Shown here piece after piece: positions 276 to 45,596 of a stretch of 64,000 nucleotides of DNA; the stretch's first letter is position 1, and every line of letters begins with the position of its first letter. This stretch comes from Bacillota bacterium (GTDB lineage Bacteria; Bacillota; Clostridia; Oscillospirales; Oscillospiraceae), in NCBI GenBank assembly GCA_029224785.1, contig JAQXVF010000001.1, positions 1-64,000 of the forward strand. Reading direction: 5' to 3'. Below the pieces are notes generated by a model. It saw only the letters and a program-made list of their open reading frames with translations, was not told the origin of the DNA and did no database searches. Made by a program: the position numbers and the translations under genes.

Positions 276-1439
276 TCAATGCAGGTTGGCGCGGCTTTGC
301 TTTCCGGCGGCCTTGGCCTGGTAAAGGGCCTTGTCTGCGGCCTGGATCAGGGCGGGGATAGAGGTATGCTCCGGGGTGCAGCGGGTGCAGCCGATGCTGA
401 TATGGATGGTATAGGGAGTCTCCATGGCTGCATTGTGCATTGCAAGGAAGCGCCGCAGCCCCTCCTGGAAGCGGGTCACCTCTTCTTCTGACTTTGGCTC
501 CATGGCCACGGCGAACTCATCGCCGCCGAAGCGGGCAATCAGGCATTTGCACTCGGCGGCGGCATCCTTTAGGGCATCCGCCAGGCAAATCAGCGCCCGG
601 TCCCCTTCCAGATGGCCATAGCGGTCGTTGATCTGCTTAAAATCATCGATATCGATCATGAAGAGGTAGAGCTGCCGCTCCGGGCTGCCCTTCTGGCGGG
701 CCAGGGCCTTGTCCAGGTGCTGCAAAAGCCGGGAGCGGTTATTGATCTGGGTCAGCGGGTCAATGGTGATCCGGCTCTGCTGGATATTGATGAACACCTG
801 CACCAGCGCAACAGTGCAGCCCATGCACAGAATGGAAAGGCCCGTGTGGAAAGACTGGATAAGGCCCGCAATCAGGGGGCAAACCACAAAGGAGGCCACG
901 GCGGAATAGGCGCGGCGGCGCGCAAAATTGCTCTTTCGGAACATCCCCGCAAGGGCCTTCACGCCAATGACCAGGAAATAGCCATAGCTCATCAGAGCCA
1001 TGAGCACATAGGCCGGTCCCTTGATGTAGCGGCCGTCGGAGCTGATATAGAAAAAGAAGCCGTATTGGAGGGTCAGTGGCAGGCAGACGACCAGCACCAG
1101 CAGCGGCAGCGCCAAAAGGCCAATCTTCTTCCTGTTTCCCAGCCAGGTCGCGCCAAGCTCATTTTCCGTATACAGGCAGGCAACGAACACCGTTGCTGCA
1201 GACACGCTGAAATACAGCACATTCAGTACTTCCACACACCAACGCGTCGGCCGGATGGCCCCGTTTTCCTGCAAGCCGCACAGCATATCCAGGACGGTGA
1301 AGGCCATCATGCCGATGACCATGGCACGAAACAGCCCGGTGGACTGGCGGGTATCCGGGCCGCGCAAATGGCAGACGAAAATAATTGCCATAATAAGCAG
1401 GCAGAACGAATTATTGATAAGGTAGCTCAGGGCATACAT
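276..1439 (-). CDS. Membrane-anchored GGDEF diguanylate cyclase
   Basis: Multiple N-terminal hydrophobic segments; C-terminal RFGGDEFAVAME motif and LTQINNRSRLLQ start of a GGDEF domain; start moved to MYALSYL downstream of GGAGG. Confidence 0.85.
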   Translation of the reverse strand: MYALSYLINNSFCLLIMAIIFVCHLRGPDTRQSTGLFRAMVIGMMAFTVLDMLCGLQENGAIRPTRWCVEVLNVLYFSVSAATVFVACLYTENELGATWLGNRKKIGLLALPLLVLVVCLPLTLQYGFFFYISSDGRYIKGPAYVLMALMSYGYFLVIGVKALAGMFRKSNFARRRAYSAVASFVVCPLIAGLIQSFHTGLSILCMGCTVALVQVFINIQQSRITIDPLTQINNRSRLLQHLDKALARQKGSPERQLYLFMIDIDDFKQINDRYGHLEGDRALICLADALKDAAAECKCLIARFGGDEFAVAMEPKSEEEVTRFQEGLRRFLAMHNAAMETPYTIHISIGCTRCTPEHTSIPALIQAADKALYQAKAAGKQSRANLH

Positions 1440-7183: not shown

Positions 7184-7212
7184 TTGACAAGCAGCAGGTT
7201 CTTTGCTATAAT
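7184..7212 (+). promoter_or_regulatory. Promoter of rplJ-rplL
   Basis: TTGACA-17 nt-TATAAT, exact consensus. Confidence 0.88.
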
Positions 7213-7217
7213 ACAAA

Positions 7218-7332
7218 AGTTGCCAGAGACAGTAGGTGGCTGTGCCGTAAATCCTACCGAGGTTACGCTTCATGTCTTTATGTGATTTTGCGTGTCCTTC
7301 TGTCTTTTGGCAGAAGGACACTTATTTTTTTG
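7218..7332 (+). ncRNA. Ribosomal protein L10 leader with terminator
   Basis: gttgccagagacagtaggtgg...aaatcctaccgaggtta (L10-leader core), then GTGTCCTTCTG-tcttttgg-CAGAAGGACAC-TTATTTTTTT directly upstream of rplJ. Confidence 0.88.
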
Positions 7333-7345
7333 GAGGTGAAAATCC

Positions 7346-35940: not shown

Positions 35941-38466
35941 ATGATTCAATACGATGTAACGGGCATGAGCTGTGCTGCCTGCAGCGCCCGGATTGAAAAG
36001 GCAGTCTCCCAGGTCCCCGGCGTCACGCAGTGCGCCGTGAACCTTCTGACCAACTCCATGAGCGTAGAGGGAACCGCCTCCCCGGAGGTGGTGATCCGGG
36101 CGGTCACCCAGGCCGGCTACGGTGCCAGCCTGAAGGGGCAGAATTCCCCTGATTCCGCCGGAGGCTCCCGGAAAGATGCCCTGCAGGATCGGGAGACTCC
36201 CGCTCTGCGCAGGCGGCTCATCGCCTCCTCCGGTTTTCTGCTTCTTCTGATGTATCTTTCCATGGGGCATATGATGGGTTCCTGGCCGGTCCCCGCATTT
36301 CTGCAGGGAAACCCCATGGCGCTGGGTCTCATGCAGCTTCTTCTCTCCGGTATCATTCTGGTTATCAATCAGAAGTTTTTCGTCAGCGGGTTTCAAAGCC
36401 TGTGGCGCAGGGCACCCAACATGGACACGCTGGTTGCCCTGGGTTCCGGGGCCTCCTTCGGTTGGAGCGTTGTCTGCCTGTTTCTGATGACAACCGCCCA
36501 GCTTCGGGGAGATGCCGATGCCGTCATGGAGTCTCTGCACAACCTGTATTTTGAGTCCGCTGCCATGATCCTGACGCTGATCACCGTTGGAAAAATGCTG
36601 GAGGCCCGTTCCAAAGGCAAAACCACCGACGCCATCAAAGCCCTGATAGAACTGTCGCCCCAGACCGCAGCCGTGGAACGGGAGGGCCGGGAAATCACTC
36701 TGCCTGTGGATCAGGTCACTGTGGGAGATGTATTCCTCGTCCGTCCCGGAGAGAGCATCCCGGTGGACGGTATCATTCTGGAGGGAAACAGCGCCGTCAA
36801 CGAGGCAGCCCTCACCGGGGAGAGCATCCCGGCGGACAAAGGTCCGGGAGACCTGGTATCTGCCGCCACCATCAATCAGTCCGGCTTCCTCCGCTGCCGG
36901 GCCACCCGGGTGGGGCAGGACACCACCCTCTCCCAAATCATCCGCATGGTCAGCGATGCCGCTGCCTCCAAGGCACCCATCGCCAAGGTAGCAGATCGGA
37001 TATCCGGCATCTTCGTCCCCGGGGTGATCTCCCTGTCCCTGATCACCCTGGTCGTGTGGCTTCTGCTGGGCCGGGAGTTCTCCTACGCTCTGGCAAGGGC
37101 CATCTCCGTTCTGGTCATCAGTTGCCCATGCGCTCTTGGCCTTGCCACTCCGGTTGCCATCATGGTCGGCAGCGGTGTCGGCGCACGAAACGGCATTCTT
37201 TTCAAAACTGCCGTGTCTCTGGAGGAAGCCGGCAAAACCGATGTGGTGGTACTGGATAAGACCGGTACCATCACCAGCGGACACCCCAAGGTCACTGATG
37301 TGGTCCCCGTTCCCGGTCAGACGGAGCAGTCTCTGGTGCAGCTTGCCCTGGACCTGGAGGCAAAAAGCGAGCATCCTCTGGCAAAAGCCATCCTCTCCTA
37401 CGGAGAAAGCCATGCCATGACTCCCAATGAAGTGGAGAATTTCACCGCTTTGCCCGGCAATGGGCTTTCTGCCGGAAAGGATGGTCAGATGCTTCTGGGG
37501 GGCAGCATGGAGTTCATCGCCTCCCGCGCTGCCGTTTCCAAAGAGATGGAGGAAAAGGCACTTCTGCTTGCTCAGGAGGGAAAGACGCCCCTGCTCTTCT
37601 GCCGCGGAAACACCTTCTGCGGCATGATTGCCGTGGCGGACACAATGAAAGAGGACAGCCCCGCTGCCATTGCCCGGCTTCACAGCATGGGCATCCATGT
37701 GGTGATGCTCACCGGTGACAACCGGCGCACCGCAGAGGCCATCGGCCGTCAGGCAGGCGTGGACGAGGTCATTGCCGGCGTGCTTCCCGAAGGAAAAGAG
37801 CGGGAGATCCGCAGGCTGAAGCAGTCCGGCAAGGTGACCATGGTAGGCGACGGCATCAACGATGCCCCTGCCCTCACCCGGGCGGACATCGGAATCGCCA
37901 TCGGTGCCGGCGCAGACGTGGCCATTGAGGCTGCCGATGTGGTGCTGATGAAAAGCAGTCTGATGGATGTTCCCGCCGCCATTTCCCTTTCCCGGGCGGC
38001 CCTGAAAAACATCCACCAGAACCTGTTCTGGGCCTTTTTCTACAACGCCATTGGAATCCCCCTGGCTACCGGCGCCTTTACCGCCTTTGGCCTGACGCTG
38101 AGTCCCATGTTCGGCGCTGCAGCCATGAGTCTGTCCAGCTTCTGCGTGGTCTCCAATGCCCTCCGGCTCAATTTCTTCAAGCCCTACAAGACAAATCCCG
38201 GCAGAAAGCCATCCGTCCGGAAACCAGCGCCTCAAAAGCCCCTGCTTCGAACCATGGTCATCGAAGGGATGATGTGTTCCCACTGTGAAAACGCCGTCCG
38301 GAGTGCCCTGGAGGCCCTCCCTCAGGTGCAATCCGCCCAGGTCAGCCATACGAAGGGCACCGCAGTGGTCACTCTTCGGTCTGACATCGTCGATGAAGCT
38401 CTGAAAAAAGCAGTGGAAGCAGAGGATTACACGGTCGTCTCCATCTGTCCTTCCCGGGAGAAATAG
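35941..38466 (+). CDS. copA: Copper-translocating P1B-type ATPase with N- and C-terminal heavy-metal-associated domains
   Basis: GMSCAAC (N-term), [28 protein letters not shown], and C-terminal [11 protein letters not shown]. Confidence 0.95.
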
Positions 38467-38618
38467 AGAAAGATCGGGCAGCGCCGCCGCAGCAGCCCTG
38501 AGGGAAGTCCGTTTTCACTTTTTCGAAAAAATGCAAAAAATATCCCCCCGGGGGGCTTAAAAACCCATTCCACGCCTGCTACAATAGGATCATCCTGAAC
38601 AAAGTGAGGTCCTTCTTC

Positions 38619-39695
38619 ATGCATATGGCGGATGCTTTGCTGGCTCCCGCAGTTGCGGCTACCATGTACGCTGCCACTGCCGTCACAGTCGGCGCTTCGG
38701 TAAAAACTCTGAAAAAAGATGAAAATGCGGAAAAACTGCCCATGATGGCTGTTACATCCGCTCTGGTATTTGCCGGACAGATGATCAACTACACCATTCC
38801 CGGCACCGGCTCCTCCGGTCACCTGTGCGGCGGCATGCTGCTGTCCGCCATTCTGGGTCCCCAGGCAGGCTTTTTGTCCATGGTGGTCATTCTGGCCATT
38901 CAGGCTCTGTTCTTTGCGGACGGCGGACTGCTGGCCCTCGGCGCCAACTGCTGGAACATGGCATTCTACGGCTGCTTCGCAGGGTATTATCTGATCTGGA
39001 AGCCCATTCTGCACAGTAGACTGTTCGCAGCCGCCTCGGAAAAAACCGCCGGACGGCGGAAGATCCTTTTGGCCTCCGTTCTGGGATGCGTGCTTACCCT
39101 GCAGTTGGGTGCCTTTTCGGTGGTGCTGGAGACTTCCCTTTCCGGAATCACGGAGCTTCCCTTCGGGCCCTTTGTCAGTGTGATGCAGCCCATTCATCTG
39201 GCCATCGGTCTGGTAGAAGGACTGATCACCTCGGCTGTTCTGCTGTTCCTTTATGAGACCCGGCCGGAGCTGATCATGGATGTTTCCTCCGAACATTCTC
39301 CGGTGCAGGGAAAGCATTCCCTGAAGTCCACGCTGATTGTTCTGACCGTGGTGGTAGCTGTGGTAGGCGGCGGACTGAGCCTGCTGGCAAGTTCCAACCC
39401 CGATGGTCTGGAGTGGTCCATGTTCGGCAATACCGACGCAGGTTACAGCGAAAATATGGGTCTTGACGAGGAACACTACGGCACGTCCAGCAATGCGGCG
39501 GAGGCAGCTGCCTCCATCCAGGACAAAACCGCGTTCCTGCCCGATTACGCTTTTGCTGACAGCGACAGCGCTGTGGGAACCACGGTCTCCGGCCTTGTGG
39601 GATCTGCCATGGTGGCAGCAGCCGCGGCTCTTGTTTGTCTGGCAGGCGGTTTCTTCCGAAAGAAAAAAAACGGTGCAAAAAACAAAGTTTTATGA
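38619..39695 (+). CDS. cbiM: Cobalt/nickel ECF transporter substrate-binding component, CbiM-CbiN fusion
   Basis: MHMADALLAPAVAA N-terminus (start trimmed so that Met-His are residues 1-2), SSGHLCGGMLLSAILGPQAGFL; C-terminal TM segments resembling CbiN. Confidence 0.85.
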   Translation: MHMADALLAPAVAATMYAATAVTVGASVKTLKKDENAEKLPMMAVTSALVFAGQMINYTIPGTGSSGHLCGGMLLSAILGPQAGFLSMVVILAIQALFFADGGLLALGANCWNMAFYGCFAGYYLIWKPILHSRLFAAASEKTAGRRKILLASVLGCVLTLQLGAFSVVLETSLSGITELPFGPFVSVMQPIHLAIGLVEGLITSAVLLFLYETRPELIMDVSSEHSPVQGKHSLKSTLIVLTVVVAVVGGGLSLLASSNPDGLEWSMFGNTDAGYSENMGLDEEHYGTSSNAAEAAASIQDKTAFLPDYAFADSDSAVGTTVSGLVGSAMVAAAAALVCLAGGFFRKKKNGAKNKVL

Positions 39696-39747
39696 TATGA
39701 TTTCAGAGGCATCTTTATGCCTCTGAATCTTTTTTAAGGAAACCGAT

Positions 39748-40551
39748 ATGGATAGATTATCTCAGGCCCAATCCGAGCTGCGGGAGATGGACGCTTTGGC
39801 GGCCATGGACTCCCCCGTTCACCGGATCCACCCGATGTGCAAGCTGTATGTGACCATTTTGTACATCGTCACGGTGGTATCCTTCCCCAAATACAATTTC
39901 TCCGGCCTTCTGGTCATGGTGATATTTCCGGTCCTCCTGTTTCAGGCTGCAGGAATCTCCGTGAAGCTGTGCTTTTACAAGCTCCGGATCGTCCTGCCTC
40001 TGGTCTGTGCCGTAGGACTGGCCAATCCGTTTCTGGATCACACCCCCGTTCTCCGGATGGGAGGGCTGGTCCTCACCGGAGGCGTTCTTTCCATGGTGAC
40101 GCTGATGATGAAGGGAGTCTTCTCCCTGATGGCATCCTTTCTGCTCATCTCCACCACCTCCATCGATTCTCTGTGTGCCGCTTTGCGGAAACTGCATCTT
40201 CCCGGGATCCTGACCACCCTGCTCCTGCTGACCTACCGATACATCGGTGTCATGATCCAGGAGGTTGCCGTCATGACCCAGGCATACCGCCTCCGTGCCC
40301 CGGGCCAGAAGGGCATCCATATTTCCGCCTGGGGTTCGTTTCTGGGTCAGCTTCTTCTGCGAAGCGCCGACCGGGCAGAAGAGCTGTATTCCAGTATGCG
40401 GCTCCGGGGCTTTCAGGGGGATTTCCACTATGCAGACGTTCCTGCCTGCCGTGTCTCTTCCCTTCTGTTTGCCGTCGGTGCAACCATCCTGATTCTCGCT
40501 GCAAGATACTTAAACATTGCCGGGTTGCTGGGCAGTCTCGTTATGAGGTGA
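39748..40551 (+). CDS. cbiQ: Cobalt/nickel ECF transporter T component
   Basis: Polytopic; HRIHPMCKLYVTILYIVTVVSF and ...ADRAEELYSSMRLRGFQGDF coupling motif; between cbiM and cbiO. Confidence 0.88.
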   Translation: MDRLSQAQSELREMDALAAMDSPVHRIHPMCKLYVTILYIVTVVSFPKYNFSGLLVMVIFPVLLFQAAGISVKLCFYKLRIVLPLVCAVGLANPFLDHTPVLRMGGLVLTGGVLSMVTLMMKGVFSLMASFLLISTTSIDSLCAALRKLHLPGILTTLLLLTYRYIGVMIQEVAVMTQAYRLRAPGQKGIHISAWGSFLGQLLLRSADRAEELYSSMRLRGFQGDFHYADVPACRVSSLLFAVGATILILAARYLNIAGLLGSLVMR

Positions 40552-40556
40552 TCAGA

Positions 40557-41282
40557 ATGATAGAATTTCAAAACGTATCCTTCTCCTACGGAGAGGGGAA
40601 GCCGGTTGTGGAGCACCTTTCCTTTTCCATCCAAGAAGGAGAAACCGTTGGTCTGATCGGTGCCAACGGCGCCGGTAAATCCACCATTATGAAGCTGCTG
40701 CTGGGTCTGCTTTCCGGATCCGGAGATATTTTGGTAGATGGGCTTCCGGTCAGCAAACAGAACCTTCCGGCAATCCGAAAGAAAGTGGGATTTGTCCTGC
40801 AGGATTCCGACAATCAGATGTTTATGCCTACCGTCTATGAGGACATGATCTTCGGCCCCCGGAACTACGGTCTGAGCCGGGAGGAAACGGAGAAACGAGT
40901 GGATTCCGTGCTCCAAACACTGGGGCTTACGGAGCTGAAGCACCGGTACAACCACAAGATCTCCGGCGGTGAAAAGCGCATGGCCGCCATTGCCACCATC
41001 CTTGCCATGGAGCCGGCCATCATTCTGATGGACGAGCCGTCCACCGCACTGGATCCGGTAAACCGCCGGACCGTCATCAACACCATCCGTTCCCTCCCCC
41101 AGACAAAGCTCATCGCCTCCCACGATCTGGACATGATTCTGGACACCTGCCAGCGAGTGATTCTCCTGTCCCACGGAGCCATCGCCGCCGACGGTGACGC
41201 AGAGGTCATCCTGCGGGACAAAGCCCTTCTGGAGGCAAACCGCATGGAGCTTCCCTTCTGCCTTCAGGGATGGCATCGATAA
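40557..41282 (+). CDS. cbiO: Cobalt/nickel ECF transporter ATPase
   Basis: MIEFQNVSFSYGEGKPVVEHLSFSIQEGETVGLIGANGAGKST...SGGEKRMAAIATILAMEPAIILMDEPSTALDP...ASHDLDMILDTCQRVILLSHG. Confidence 0.92.
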   Translation: MIEFQNVSFSYGEGKPVVEHLSFSIQEGETVGLIGANGAGKSTIMKLLLGLLSGSGDILVDGLPVSKQNLPAIRKKVGFVLQDSDNQMFMPTVYEDMIFGPRNYGLSREETEKRVDSVLQTLGLTELKHRYNHKISGGEKRMAAIATILAMEPAIILMDEPSTALDPVNRRTVINTIRSLPQTKLIASHDLDMILDTCQRVILLSHGAIAADGDAEVILRDKALLEANRMELPFCLQGWHR

Positions 41283-41350: not shown

Positions 41351-42136
41351 TTATACTTCCATATGGAAATGGGTTTTCAGAATCTCCGGAAACTCCTCTT
41401 CCGTAAAAGTGCGTTCCCGATGTTCTCCGTTTTCCGTCACCGTCAGCACATCTCCCCGGATGTTGATATTGCCGCGCTCCGTCCGGAGATTGACCAACCT
41501 TGTTGTCCGGAAAAGGGTGGCAGGGCTGCTGATGAGGGCCCGGCACAGAGGTACAAAATCCGTTGGCAGGAAGGGCTGAGGCGCAAAAATGATCACGTTT
41601 CCCTCGGTGCCCTGGGAGGTCAGCCGCTTCTGCAGATACCAGCCCTCGTAGGTAGGCTCGATCCAGTAGGTCTCCCCATGCCGGGTCTGGCGGGTCTCGG
41701 AAACCTCCACAGCGAAGGGCGCCATGGGGCCGCCCAGACCCACGTCACACAGATACATCCGGCCGTCCAGGCGGACCAGACAGGCGCGGTGGGACAATCC
41801 GCCCAGTACCGGCCGGTTGGCCGCCACCCGGCACATACAGGAATAAGCATCAAAGCCCATGGCGCGCAGCAGCAGAACAAACAATCCGTTCAGTTCGAAG
41901 CAGAATCCTCCCCGTCGCCGTCCCACGATCTTTTCAAACAGAGCCTCTCCGTCCAGAGGCAGATCGGGAACCCCGACTACCAAATCCAGATCCTCAAAGG
42001 GCACCGTGCACTGATGCTGATACACCAGCGTATCCAGTGTCTGCCTGCTCAATTCCCGGATCCCCTGGCAGCCGATCCGCTCCAGGTAGGCGTTCTTTTG
42101 CTCCGTCGTCAATTCTTCATAGACAAATTCAAACAT
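41351..42136 (-). CDS. Arylamine N-acetyltransferase family protein
   Basis: YLERIGCQGIRELSRQTLDTLVYQHQCTVPFEDLDLVVG...GRRRGGFCFELNGLFVLLLRAMGFDAY...HRACLVRLDGRMYLCDVGLGG (Cys-His-Asp). Confidence 0.92.
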   Translation of the reverse strand: MFEFVYEELTTEQKNAYLERIGCQGIRELSRQTLDTLVYQHQCTVPFEDLDLVVGVPDLPLDGEALFEKIVGRRRGGFCFELNGLFVLLLRAMGFDAYSCMCRVAANRPVLGGLSHRACLVRLDGRMYLCDVGLGGPMAPFAVEVSETRQTRHGETYWIEPTYEGWYLQKRLTSQGTEGNVIIFAPQPFLPTDFVPLCRALISSPATLFRTTRLVNLRTERGNINIRGDVLTVTENGEHRERTFTEEEFPEILKTHFHMEV

Positions 42137-42166: not shown

Positions 42167-43039
42167 CTATCGGTAAAACTTCCCCATAGAGAATCCTCTT
42201 CCTCTGACCTCACTGACCCTGGCCACGATCAAAAAGCTCTCCGGATCAATGGAATGGATCAGCCGCTGGATCCGGGGCACCTCCCGATTGGACACCACGC
42301 TCAGTACGATCTGGGTCTTCTGTCTCAGGTATCCCCCTTCTCCGTTGATCAGGGTAACGCCCCGGTCGATCTCCTGAAGGATCCGCTGCCGGATCTCTTC
42401 CGATTTCTGGCTGACCACGGTGATCTGGGTCTTGGTTGTGCCGATCAGCAGGAACCGGTTCAGCACCATGGTGTAGATCAGGATCAGAAGGATCCCGTAA
42501 AGGACATCCTCCAGGGAATGGTAGAGCAGCTGAAACAGGAGAATACAGACATCAAACACATTCAGGCTCAAGGAAACCGGGATCCCGAAAAAATGCTTCA
42601 GGATCAGCGGCGGAATGTCCATTCCGCCGGTGGACGCGCCGCACCGGATCACAATGCCCAGAGATACCCCGAGGCCCAGCCCGGAAAACACCATGCAAAG
42701 CAGGGGATCCCGGGTAATGACCACATCCCCCAGCAGCCAGTTGAGCATCTGCAGCGCCGCGGGATAGGCAAAGGTACTGATAATCGTGGTCATGGCAAAC
42801 CGCTTTCCCAGAACCAGATATCCCAGAAACAGCATGGCCACGTTAAAGATCAGCACAAACGTCGGTATGGACATTCCGGTATAGTGATTGACCACCAGAG
42901 CAATGCCGGTGGTACCGGCTGTGATCAGCCCGGACGGAAGCAAAAACAGCTTTACCGTCAGCGCGTAGAGGATCTCCCCCGCCAGAATCAGCAGCACATA
43001 TCCCACGTTTTGCAGAATCTTTTCCCGTTTTTCTGTCAT
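42167..43039 (-). CDS. YitT family membrane protein (copy 1)
   Basis: N-terminal TM domain plus DUF2179-like C-terminus (INGEGGYLRQKTQIVLSVVSNREVPRIQRLIHSIDPESFLIVARVSEVRGRGF); alternative upstream start 43054. Confidence 0.9.
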   Translation of the reverse strand: MTEKREKILQNVGYVLLILAGEILYALTVKLFLLPSGLITAGTTGIALVVNHYTGMSIPTFVLIFNVAMLFLGYLVLGKRFAMTTIISTFAYPAALQMLNWLLGDVVITRDPLLCMVFSGLGLGVSLGIVIRCGASTGGMDIPPLILKHFFGIPVSLSLNVFDVCILLFQLLYHSLEDVLYGILLILIYTMVLNRFLLIGTTKTQITVVSQKSEEIRQRILQEIDRGVTLINGEGGYLRQKTQIVLSVVSNREVPRIQRLIHSIDPESFLIVARVSEVRGRGFSMGKFYR

Positions 43040-43084
43040 TTCCCCATCCCCCAAGAAGCGAGTTCGAAGCTGCCGGACGGTTTG

Positions 43085-43957
43085 TCAGCCGCCTGCCACT
43101 CTTGTGATCCGGAAGCCCTCTCCCTGGACCTCCTTGGACTCCATCACGATGATAAAGGCCTCCGGGACCTTCTCCTTCAGGATCCGCTGGACCCGGTAGA
43201 TGTCCTTCGCGCTCCCCGCCACCATGACCACGTCCTTTTCGTCCTCCTGGTAGCCGCCCTTGGCAGGGAAGATGGTGGAACCGCGTTTTGTACTGTCATC
43301 AATCATGTCGCAGATCATCTTTCCCATTCCGCTGGGGGCCACGATCAGGGCCATTTGCCCGATATTCATGCCCAGAATGATCCGGTCGATGAGTGCAGAG
43401 CAGAGGAAGCTCACGATCAGGCCGTACACAATGCCGTCCAGATCCTGAAACAGGAATGCGCCTGCCAGGATGATCCCCAGGTCCAGACTGAAGGTAATGG
43501 TGCCCAGATGGACATGGGGGCGCAATGCCTTAATTGCCATGGAAATGAAATCCAGGCCGCCGGTGGAAGATCCCTCCAGGTACACAATGGCATATCCGAT
43601 GGCGCACAGGGTGCCGGTCAACAGGGCGGCGATCATACGGTCCCCCTGATACACCGGCAGCAGCGGCGCCACATGGTCCAGCATCACCGAGCAGAGGATC
43701 ATACAGCGGAAGGATTTCAGCAGAAAATTCCTGCCGATCAGCTTCCAGCACAGAAAAACCAGCGGAAGATTCAGAAGCAGAGAGCTGACACCCATGGGAA
43801 TCCGGAACAGCCTGTATAGGATCAGGGCAATGCCCGAAAATCCCGTCATGGGAAACTTGGCGTACAATGCCACATTGTAGGTCGCCAGTGCAACCAAAAA
43901 CGCACCCACCGCCTCCAAAGCCGTTTGTTTCAAAAAACCGCAGATCGCCTTTTTCAC
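43085..43957 (-). CDS. YitT family membrane protein (copy 2)
   Basis: GSSTGGLDFISMAIK; TIFPAKGGYQEDEKDVVMVAGSAKDIYRVQRILKEKVPEAFIIVMESKEVQGEGF; GTG start overlapping the upstream stop. Confidence 0.9.
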   Translation of the reverse strand: MKKAICGFLKQTALEAVGAFLVALATYNVALYAKFPMTGFSGIALILYRLFRIPMGVSSLLLNLPLVFLCWKLIGRNFLLKSFRCMILCSVMLDHVAPLLPVYQGDRMIAALLTGTLCAIGYAIVYLEGSSTGGLDFISMAIKALRPHVHLGTITFSLDLGIILAGAFLFQDLDGIVYGLIVSFLCSALIDRIILGMNIGQMALIVAPSGMGKMICDMIDDSTKRGSTIFPAKGGYQEDEKDVVMVAGSAKDIYRVQRILKEKVPEAFIIVMESKEVQGEGFRITRVAGG

Positions 43958-44442
43958 AGGTCCGTCTCCTTTGTTCCGTCTTGTTTCATCCTGCCCTCAT
44001 GGAACGCGTTCTGCCTTTCGGCCCACTGCCGGAATTGGGGCACCGTCACGGGACAGTGCTCCAGGCCGGGATGAATCGCTTCCGCTGCCTGCCAGACCCA
44101 GGGCTTCCGCAGCCCCGACTGATGGAGCAGGTCCTGGTTGGAAAAAATCCGTTCCATTTCGCAGTCCTCCGCCAGTTTCCCATGGGAAAACACAAGCCCC
44201 CGGCGGGCAAAGCGAGCGGCGAAATTCACATCGTGGGTGCTGCCCAAGAAGTACAGGCAGCACACTGCGCCCATGGCCTGAAAGAACAGCGTCACAGCCC
44301 GGTGCAGGCTGCTTTTGGTGATACACAGATAGACGCTGCCAAATCGCAGTTGCATTAGCCCCACTATCTCCCGGAGGATTTCAAGCAGAATCACAAGACA
44401 ACTGATCTGCGCTCCCAGTTGGTGAGTTTGGTTTTCATTCAA
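43954..44442 (-). pseudogene. Remnant of a CbiO-like ECF ATPase (C-terminal part only)
   Basis: STHDVNFAARFARRGLVFSHGKLAEDCEMERIFSNQDLLHQSGLRKPWV matches the post-Walker B/H-loop tail of CbiO; no Walker A, no SGG signature, unrelated N-terminal 60 or so residues. Confidence 0.65.
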
Positions 44443-44549
44443 AAACCCCGTAAAAACAAAAAATAAGCAGCCAACGGCAGCCTAATAACAGGGCATGTCT
44501 GCCCAATTATCCAGAGACTGAGCACCGCAATCTTGGTTCCACAAATCGG

Positions 44550-44712
44550 CATAAGCAGGTTTCCTGGCTCCAGTTCACCGCTTTGCATGTCTTCTCAGGC
44601 AAGGCTGCCCAATGACATTTTTACGCTTTGCTCCCTGTTACAGTGACGGGTTCGCTTCGGACTTGCACCGAATTCCCTTTATCCCTCGCGGGACTCACAC
44701 CGGATAGGATAT
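44550..44712 (-). ncRNA. Cobalamin riboswitch
   Basis: Minus strand TCCGGTGTGAGTCCCGCGAGGG...TTCGGTGCAAGTCCGAAGC...CCGTCACTGT...GAGCCAGGAAACCTGCTTATGCCG, cobalamin aptamer core. Confidence 0.88.
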
Positions 44713-44769
44713 TCATTTCTTCCATAGAATACCAGATTTCGAAAGTGTTGTCAAATCTTTTTGTTTTTT

Positions 44770-44805
44770 CGAAAAACCACCTGCAATTCCGGATTGCAGG
44801 TGGTT
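44770..44805 (-). terminator. Terminator after the ABC permease gene
   Basis: AACCACCTGCAAT-ccgga-ATTGCAGGTGGTT followed on minus by TTTTCG. Confidence 0.75.
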
Positions 44806-44810
44806 ATGAA

Positions 44811-45596
44811 TCAGGCAATGTCCTTTTTTGTGTACTTCCGGAAGGCCGCCAGGATCCCCGCGGCGCCCAACGCCATTCCGACTGCCAGAAGACTCCCATT
44901 CAGAGTGCACTCCGAAATGATATCTGCGCTGTCCGTATAGCCGAAGGGTGTGAAATACTTCAAAAATCTGGCCTTTTCGGTCAGGTTGGCAACGATGTTC
45001 AGGAAATAAAACACAGCCGCCAGTCCCAGTCCGATTCCCAGGCCGCTGTGCCGAACGAATGCGGAGATCCCGAAGGTCACGGCGCAGATCTCAAGCTGCA
45101 TCAGCAGATTCGCCGTCAGAACCAGCGCCAGAGGCTTCCACTCCACATCCTCCCCGATCCACCGGATACACCCCGCACAAACCGCGGCCACCACGGCGTT
45201 GAGGATGAGGATCTGAAGAACAACCGCCAGCAGCTTTTCGGCGAGGACCCGGGTCCTGGAAATGGGATGGGTCAGAAGGAACTCCGCCGTGTGCTCTTTT
45301 TCCTCCTTGGCCAAAGCAGAAATGCCAATGAGTGCCGCAAAAAAAGCACCACCCAGTCCCAAAACGTTTCCGCACTCCACTCCGAAAAACCCGATAAACT
45401 CACCGAAATTGATCTTATCCATGCCAAATGCTGCCGTAAAGCTGCCCATATCGGCAAAAATGGCGCTGAAATCCTCCATCTGGGACCCCATTTCCGGATA
45501 GATCAGGATACACAGGCCGATCATCAGTGAAATGGCTGCGGTCCAGATGACAAGGGACAGTCTCCCCTGCTTCAGCTCATGTTTACAGACCGTCAT
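44811..45596 (-). CDS. ABC-2 type permease
   Basis: Six-TM-like hydrophobic profile; overlaps the downstream end of the ABC ATPase gene. Confidence 0.82.
   Translation of the reverse strand: MTVCKHELKQGRLSLVIWTAAISLMIGLCILIYPEMGSQMEDFSAIFADMGSFTAAFGMDKINFGEFIGFFGVECGNVLGLGGAFFAALIGISALAKEEKEHTAEFLLTHPISRTRVLAEKLLAVVLQILILNAVVAAVCAGCIRWIGEDVEWKPLALVLTANLLMQLEICAVTFGISAFVRHSGLGIGLGLAAVFYFLNIVANLTEKARFLKYFTPFGYTDSADIISECTLNGSLLAVGMALGAAGILAAFRKYTKKDIA

Follow-up and report, generated by a model that had tools for sequence, protein, structure and literature searches.

Organization of the locus and its leader

The locus raises the question of what a cobalamin riboswitch controls once the cobalt-uptake genes behind it have been reduced to fragments. 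The window (the whole stretch of DNA analysed, 64,000 nucleotides) carries on its minus strand, in order of transcription, a promoter, a cobalamin riboswitch, a 162-aa composite ORF, two YitT genes (yitT1 and yitT2), and an arylamine N-acetyltransferase gene (nat). The original prediction was that a cobalt ECF operon had been deleted down to its last segment, leaving the riboswitch ahead of the two YitT genes, and that the remnant might be kept by translational coupling to yitT. The leader elements are as follows.

44726–44754, minus strand: sigma-70-type promoter TTGACA-17-TATTCT with extended −10 TG, 10/12 matches, ahead of the riboswitch
44537–44713, minus strand: cobalamin riboswitch aptamer, RF00174, 100.1 bits, E 8e-24
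44511–44536, minus strand: platform hairpin CCAAGAUUG...CAGUCU.UGG, 98.6% of cells paired in 8 sequences
44491–44504, minus strand: second small hairpin GGGCAGACATGCCC, two pairs with compensatory changes among relatives
44452–44484, minus strand: intrinsic-terminator hairpin and U tract (helix 3), two pairs with compensatory changes

The minus-strand aptamer proposed from the sequence was recovered by the covariance model, which matched 44713–44537 over the whole model (1–189/189) with 100.1 bits against a gathering score of 31.5. The promoter upstream of the aptamer was the only promoter-like site that the promoter scan gave in 43000–44900, and its −35 and −10 positions were conserved in seven relatives. 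The three platform helices showed 98.3% of cells paired across eight leaders with four pairs changed on both sides, compared with at most 48% for slid controls; these pairing figures are favoured because the structure was derived from the very alignment on which it was scored. The platform hairpin at 44511–44536 had no both-side changes among the 8 sequences. The riboswitch is thus followed by a conserved terminator hairpin with a U tract, but this hairpin folded with −8.6 kcal/mol in the window, compared with −14.6 to −18.3 kcal/mol in the three relatives folded. Read-through may therefore be high and control weak.

The composite ORF and the deletion junctions

An intact riboswitch-cbiM-cbiN-cbiQ-cbiO operon was present in seven relatives (L105–L110 and L087), as the suggested comparison with close relatives had anticipated. 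Another intact copy was observed in Oscillibacter valericigenes An860, where it is followed by corrin-synthesis genes (assigned by sequence). The window aligned with the intact loci at 70–84% nucleotide identity from the promoter through the aptamer and platform to cbiM codon 11. At the first junction (44406/44405) the alignment leaps from cbiM to cbiQ, and at the second (44242–44236) from cbiQ to cbiO. Relative to L106, these two internal deletions removed ~1.29 kb and ~0.97 kb. The resulting segments are listed below.

44406–44438, minus strand: cbiM remnant, codons 1–11 (MKTKLTNWERR) from ATG 44438, by alignment to the relatives' cbiM starts
44236–44405, minus strand: cbiQ remnant, ~55 codons of central CbiQ sequence, 62–77% aa identity to most relatives' CbiQ; TIGR02454
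44236–44242, minus strand: CAGCACC deletion endpoint, found in both cbiQ and cbiO of L105 and L107
44017–44242, minus strand: cbiO remnant, C-terminal ~75 codons from STHD on, 56–64% aa identity to relatives' CbiO
43957–44016, minus strand: ORF tail without CbiO homology or terminator, containing the yitT1 ribosome-binding site AAAGGAG; in the relatives CbiO stops at or just past this point

That L105 and L107 carry CAGCACC at each end of the missing stretch fits a deletion between short direct repeats. Of cbiM, cbiQ, and cbiO just fragments are left, and cbiN is entirely gone. The predicted loss of a cobalt ECF operon ahead of the YitT genes is therefore borne out, except that pieces of three genes survive and not just the last segment.

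The ORF at 43954–44442 (minus strand, 162 aa) is open, as reported earlier. The Pfam search of this ORF gave no significant domain. NCBIfam gave two weak adjoining matches, one to CbiQ (TIGR02454, residues 32–72, E 0.0026) and one, at residues 69–123, to the C-terminal part of the ECF/CbiO ATPases (TIGR04521, E 1.6e-4). In congeners, residues 13–67 were 62–77% identical to CbiQ; in five of these genomes, residues 12–72 matched CbiQ at 63–73% and residues 64–145 matched CbiO at 58–63%, the CbiO matches having E values of 1e-27 to 1e-31. The CbiO-like tail had been recognized before, and so had the missing Walker A and ABC signature motifs; similarity to CbiO starts with the STHD (H-loop) segment, and the preceding ATPase motifs, Walker B included, were deleted. 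CbiQ and CbiO pieces were joined in none of the genomes searched except that of the window. In the five congeners CbiQ and CbiO were two separate genes ~1 kb apart, and every one of these genomes had a cobalamin riboswitch upstream of the pair. Separate cbiQ and cbiO matches with a riboswitch upstream were observed in G129, G131, and G151. Besides the CbiQ piece and the cbiM start, the present analysis adds the nat gene and a second cbiM-Q-O set at 38604–41282 (plus strand) to the earlier description.

The cbiM remnant (the first 33 nt from ATG 44438) lies in a different frame from the 162-aa ORF. Its frame ends at TGA 44393–44391 and gives a 15-residue peptide, MKTKLTNWERRSVVL. As the authentic cbiM ATG yields just 15 residues, the 162-aa frame from TTG 44442 is a mosaic pseudogene with an arbitrary upstream start. 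The end of the 15-aa peptide and the remnant frame form a second GTGA overlap (44391–44394, minus strand), which echoes the GTGA of yitT1. Re-initiation into the remnant frame at this site is possible from the sequence.

The downstream genes

43085–43957, minus strand: yitT1, 290 aa, GTG start; PF02588 E 3.7e-44, PF10035 E 1.2e-14
42167–43039, minus strand: yitT2, ATG 43039; PF02588 E 1.3e-46, PF10035 (DUF2179) E 2.2e-19
41351–42136, minus strand: nat, arylamine N-acetyltransferase; PF00797 E 4.4e-44

The stop of the remnant ORF overlaps the GTG of yitT1 as GTGA, and a second YitT gene follows the first, both as originally described. Both proteins are full-length and carry the YitT membrane domain (PF02588) together with DUF2179 (PF10035). 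The yitT1 ribosome-binding site AAAGGAG is located 8 nt ahead of its GTG. The nat gene starts 30 nt past yitT2 and has its own ribosome-binding site, and no minus-strand terminator was found between yitT1 and nat; nat is probably the end of the yitT1-yitT2 transcript.

In L106, L107, L108, and L087 an inverted repeat followed by a T-run (intrinsic terminator) was observed after cbiO, and in L109 the next gene stands directly after cbiO. No terminator structure was found between the cbiO tail and yitT1 in the window. With the post-cbiO terminator missing, the intact promoter and riboswitch immediately precede the yitT1-yitT2-nat genes. The locus is thus a decayed cobalt ECF operon in which promoter, aptamer, and terminator are conserved and the path into yitT1-yitT2-nat is unbroken.

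Among 60 relatives the closest match to yitT1 was 51% (G001). The yitT2 orthologues of congeners showed 49–61% identity, and in the seven loci read they occupied other contexts without B12 surroundings. No YitT gene was located near cbiMNQO in the relatives' loci examined. By-eye comparison across 136 congeners gave, among the matches listed, no other cobalamin riboswitch with a YitT gene at 5 kb or less in operon orientation; in G028 and G031 a YitT gene and a riboswitch are ~1 kb apart, but the two are divergent. On this evidence the YitT-riboswitch pairing appears private to the lineage of the window.

Two further ideas on the origin of the pairing were discarded. A role of YitT as a B12-controlled substitute cobalt transporter does not agree with yitT2 orthologues that lack a B12 context, nor with the absence of any other operon-orientation pair among the matches listed. 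An ancestral cbiMNQO-yitT operon does not agree with the lack of a YitT gene around cbiMNQO at the loci inspected in relatives. Elsewhere in the genome, a YitT gene fragment at 943–1158 (minus strand) of L091 (G000 contig C36) was 47% identical to yitT1 residues 119–190, and it is apparently a decayed paralogue.

B12 genes elsewhere in the genome

The genome has one CbiM copy left, at 38604, and G009 and G019 have two each. This copy belongs to the second complete cbiM(N)-cbiQ-cbiO set (38604–41282, plus strand), which has no cobalamin riboswitch and whose end is convergent with nat. A heavy-metal P-type ATPase gene with HMA domains is located upstream of this set (35941–38466, plus strand).

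Contig C75 (L137, 1–2510) carries broken B12 genes. CbiB lacks its first half (model positions 153–281 of 282 matched), and CbiC stops at residue 152/207 in mid-contig. CobQ is apparently present only as its two ends, with the C-terminal fragment (a weak profile match, E 4e-4) between CobD and CbiC. The damage to cbiB, cobQ, and cbiC indicates that B12 synthesis is decaying, and the loss of the cbiMNQO operon probably followed from the lineage losing B12 synthesis. One corrinoid methyl-transfer protein persists in the genome. The only other cobalamin riboswitch was detected in L090 (contig C79, 5557–5761, minus strand) before a DUF4430 protein; a CbiQ-like gene is divergent from this DUF4430 gene. 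As the corrinoid protein and the second riboswitch remain, the genome probably still senses B12. The simplest reading is that the lineage abandoned B12 synthesis together with this cobalt importer, yet would still use B12.

Changes in the leader and in the remnant

A private change was counted where the window differs at a column invariant in the seven relatives. The aptamer showed 1/102 private changes and the platform 2/47 (3/149 together), compared with 18/185 in the coding remnant. Fisher p was 0.003 for aptamer against remnant and 0.005 with the platform added; these values are uncorrected, belong to eight comparisons, and take linked sites as independent. Pairs with the window showed pN of 0.224 against 0.170, with similar pS. 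The same private-change test on the relatives gave a similar tendency in L105 and the opposite bias in L107. These results are only suggestive of selection that is relaxed on the remnant and retained on the leader. As no stop codon has yet arisen in the remnant frame, the deletions may be recent, and the conservation of the riboswitch may just mean that little time has elapsed.

Proposed regulation and alternative explanations

The most probable reading, to which we give good though not full confidence, is that the locus is what remains of a cobalt-uptake operon whose still-working riboswitch was captured by deletion, so that B12 would lower yitT1-yitT2-nat by transcription termination. Two deletions stripped nearly all of the cbiMNQO genes and spared the promoter and riboswitch. 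When B12 is absent, transcription would get past the terminator hairpin and run through the dead remnant into yitT1-yitT2-nat. When B12 is present, the aptamer-bound form would permit the hairpin at 44484–44464, and transcription would mostly halt. Translation of yitT1, yitT2, and nat would begin at a separate ribosome-binding site for each gene. Control of yitT by B12 is plausible, and we infer the same regulation for the whole yitT1-yitT2-nat unit. It is a more tentative suggestion, and rather a doubtful one, that B12-dependent expression of the YitT proteins and the acetyltransferase is useful and that selection keeps the switch, i.e., that this is a young regulon expansion via operon deletion.

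The deletions could be real and the riboswitch a dying fossil, with a weakened terminator that controls nothing and yitT1-yitT2-nat expressed constitutively from the riboswitch promoter or from promoters missed by the scan. The weak terminator hairpin (−8.6 kcal/mol, where relatives have −14.6 to −18.3 kcal/mol) and the decaying B12 pathway of the same genome agree with this, and since the deletions the riboswitch may have had too little time to decay. However, the aptamer is nearly free of private changes, unlike the coding remnant, the promoter hexamers and U tract are retained, and the corrinoid protein and second B12 riboswitch suggest that B12 is probably still sensed; we therefore regard a fossil as unlikely. 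A still lower probability, very low in our estimate, falls to the composite ORF having become a new gene with a function of its own, coding for a CbiQ-CbiO fusion peptide, or being kept through translational coupling to yitT1. Its 162 codons without stops, its GTGA overlap with yitT1, and the GTGA at 44394–44391, which could let ribosomes re-initiate into the remnant frame, are in keeping with such a function. Against it, ATG 44438, which has the best placement of the starts (a few nt behind a GGGG), opens a frame that differs from that of the ORF and stops after 15 codons, the ATPase motifs are all gone, and the remnant has more private changes than the leader and a raised pN at equal pS. Since yitT1 also carries its own ribosome-binding site, the coupling part of the original prediction was not upheld.

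The deletions might also be an assembly artefact, the real chromosome having an intact cbiMNQO. The source assembly is a draft of 89 contigs with 3% contamination, and the species is represented by this one genome. The junctions, however, share ~7 bases at most, far under the usual assembly overlap, the missing cbiM has no other copy (the one CbiM of the genome is that at 38604), and further B12 genes are broken too. An artefact is thus extremely improbable, and the captured riboswitch remains our preferred reading.

Comparison with known systems

The published cobalamin regulon comprises B12 biosynthesis, B12 transport, cobalt transport, and isozymes (PMC3766115), and YitT and arylamine N-acetyltransferase lie outside these categories. 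In the paper library searched, no paper linked YitT with a cobalamin riboswitch, or YitT with riboswitches. Like the RF00174-cbiMNQO systems, the window has the aptamer, promoter, and terminator platform of the seven relatives' intact leaders; it differs in that the genes once served are gone and YitT and acetyltransferase genes stand downstream instead. The cobalamin riboswitch is of a known kind, and its putative present targets are new. YitT has a predicted fold that is partly aquaporin-like, and a transport database places it in a novobiocin-exporter family (PMC8761152). The window proteins share the full domain pair of the YitT family (PF02588 and DUF2179), but the relatives' YitT genes occur in other contexts with no adjoining cobalamin riboswitch, whereas those of the window stand behind one. 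The second junction, whose CAGCACC occurs on either end of the deletion in two relatives, resembles operons pseudogenised by deletions between short direct repeats; here the cis-regulator survives and passes to the downstream genes, which is the difference.

The relatives' intact operons, the exact deletion endpoints, the conserved leader, and the rotting genes together give a stepwise view of how a metabolite-sensing RNA can switch to another target. The locus is a testable example of regulatory rewiring that needs no new regulatory sequence. It also cautions that a riboswitch beside an uncharacterised gene need not disclose the function of that gene; annotation of YitT here as a cobalt or B12 transporter is unwarranted on this evidence.

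In other genomes, back-to-back divergent cobalamin riboswitches ~90–130 bases apart were observed at G146:C5:31093–31576, G132:C12:80175–80699, and G099:C22:98327–98848. The window also contains an ordinary ribosomal protein L10 leader (RF00557) at 7205–7334 (plus strand).
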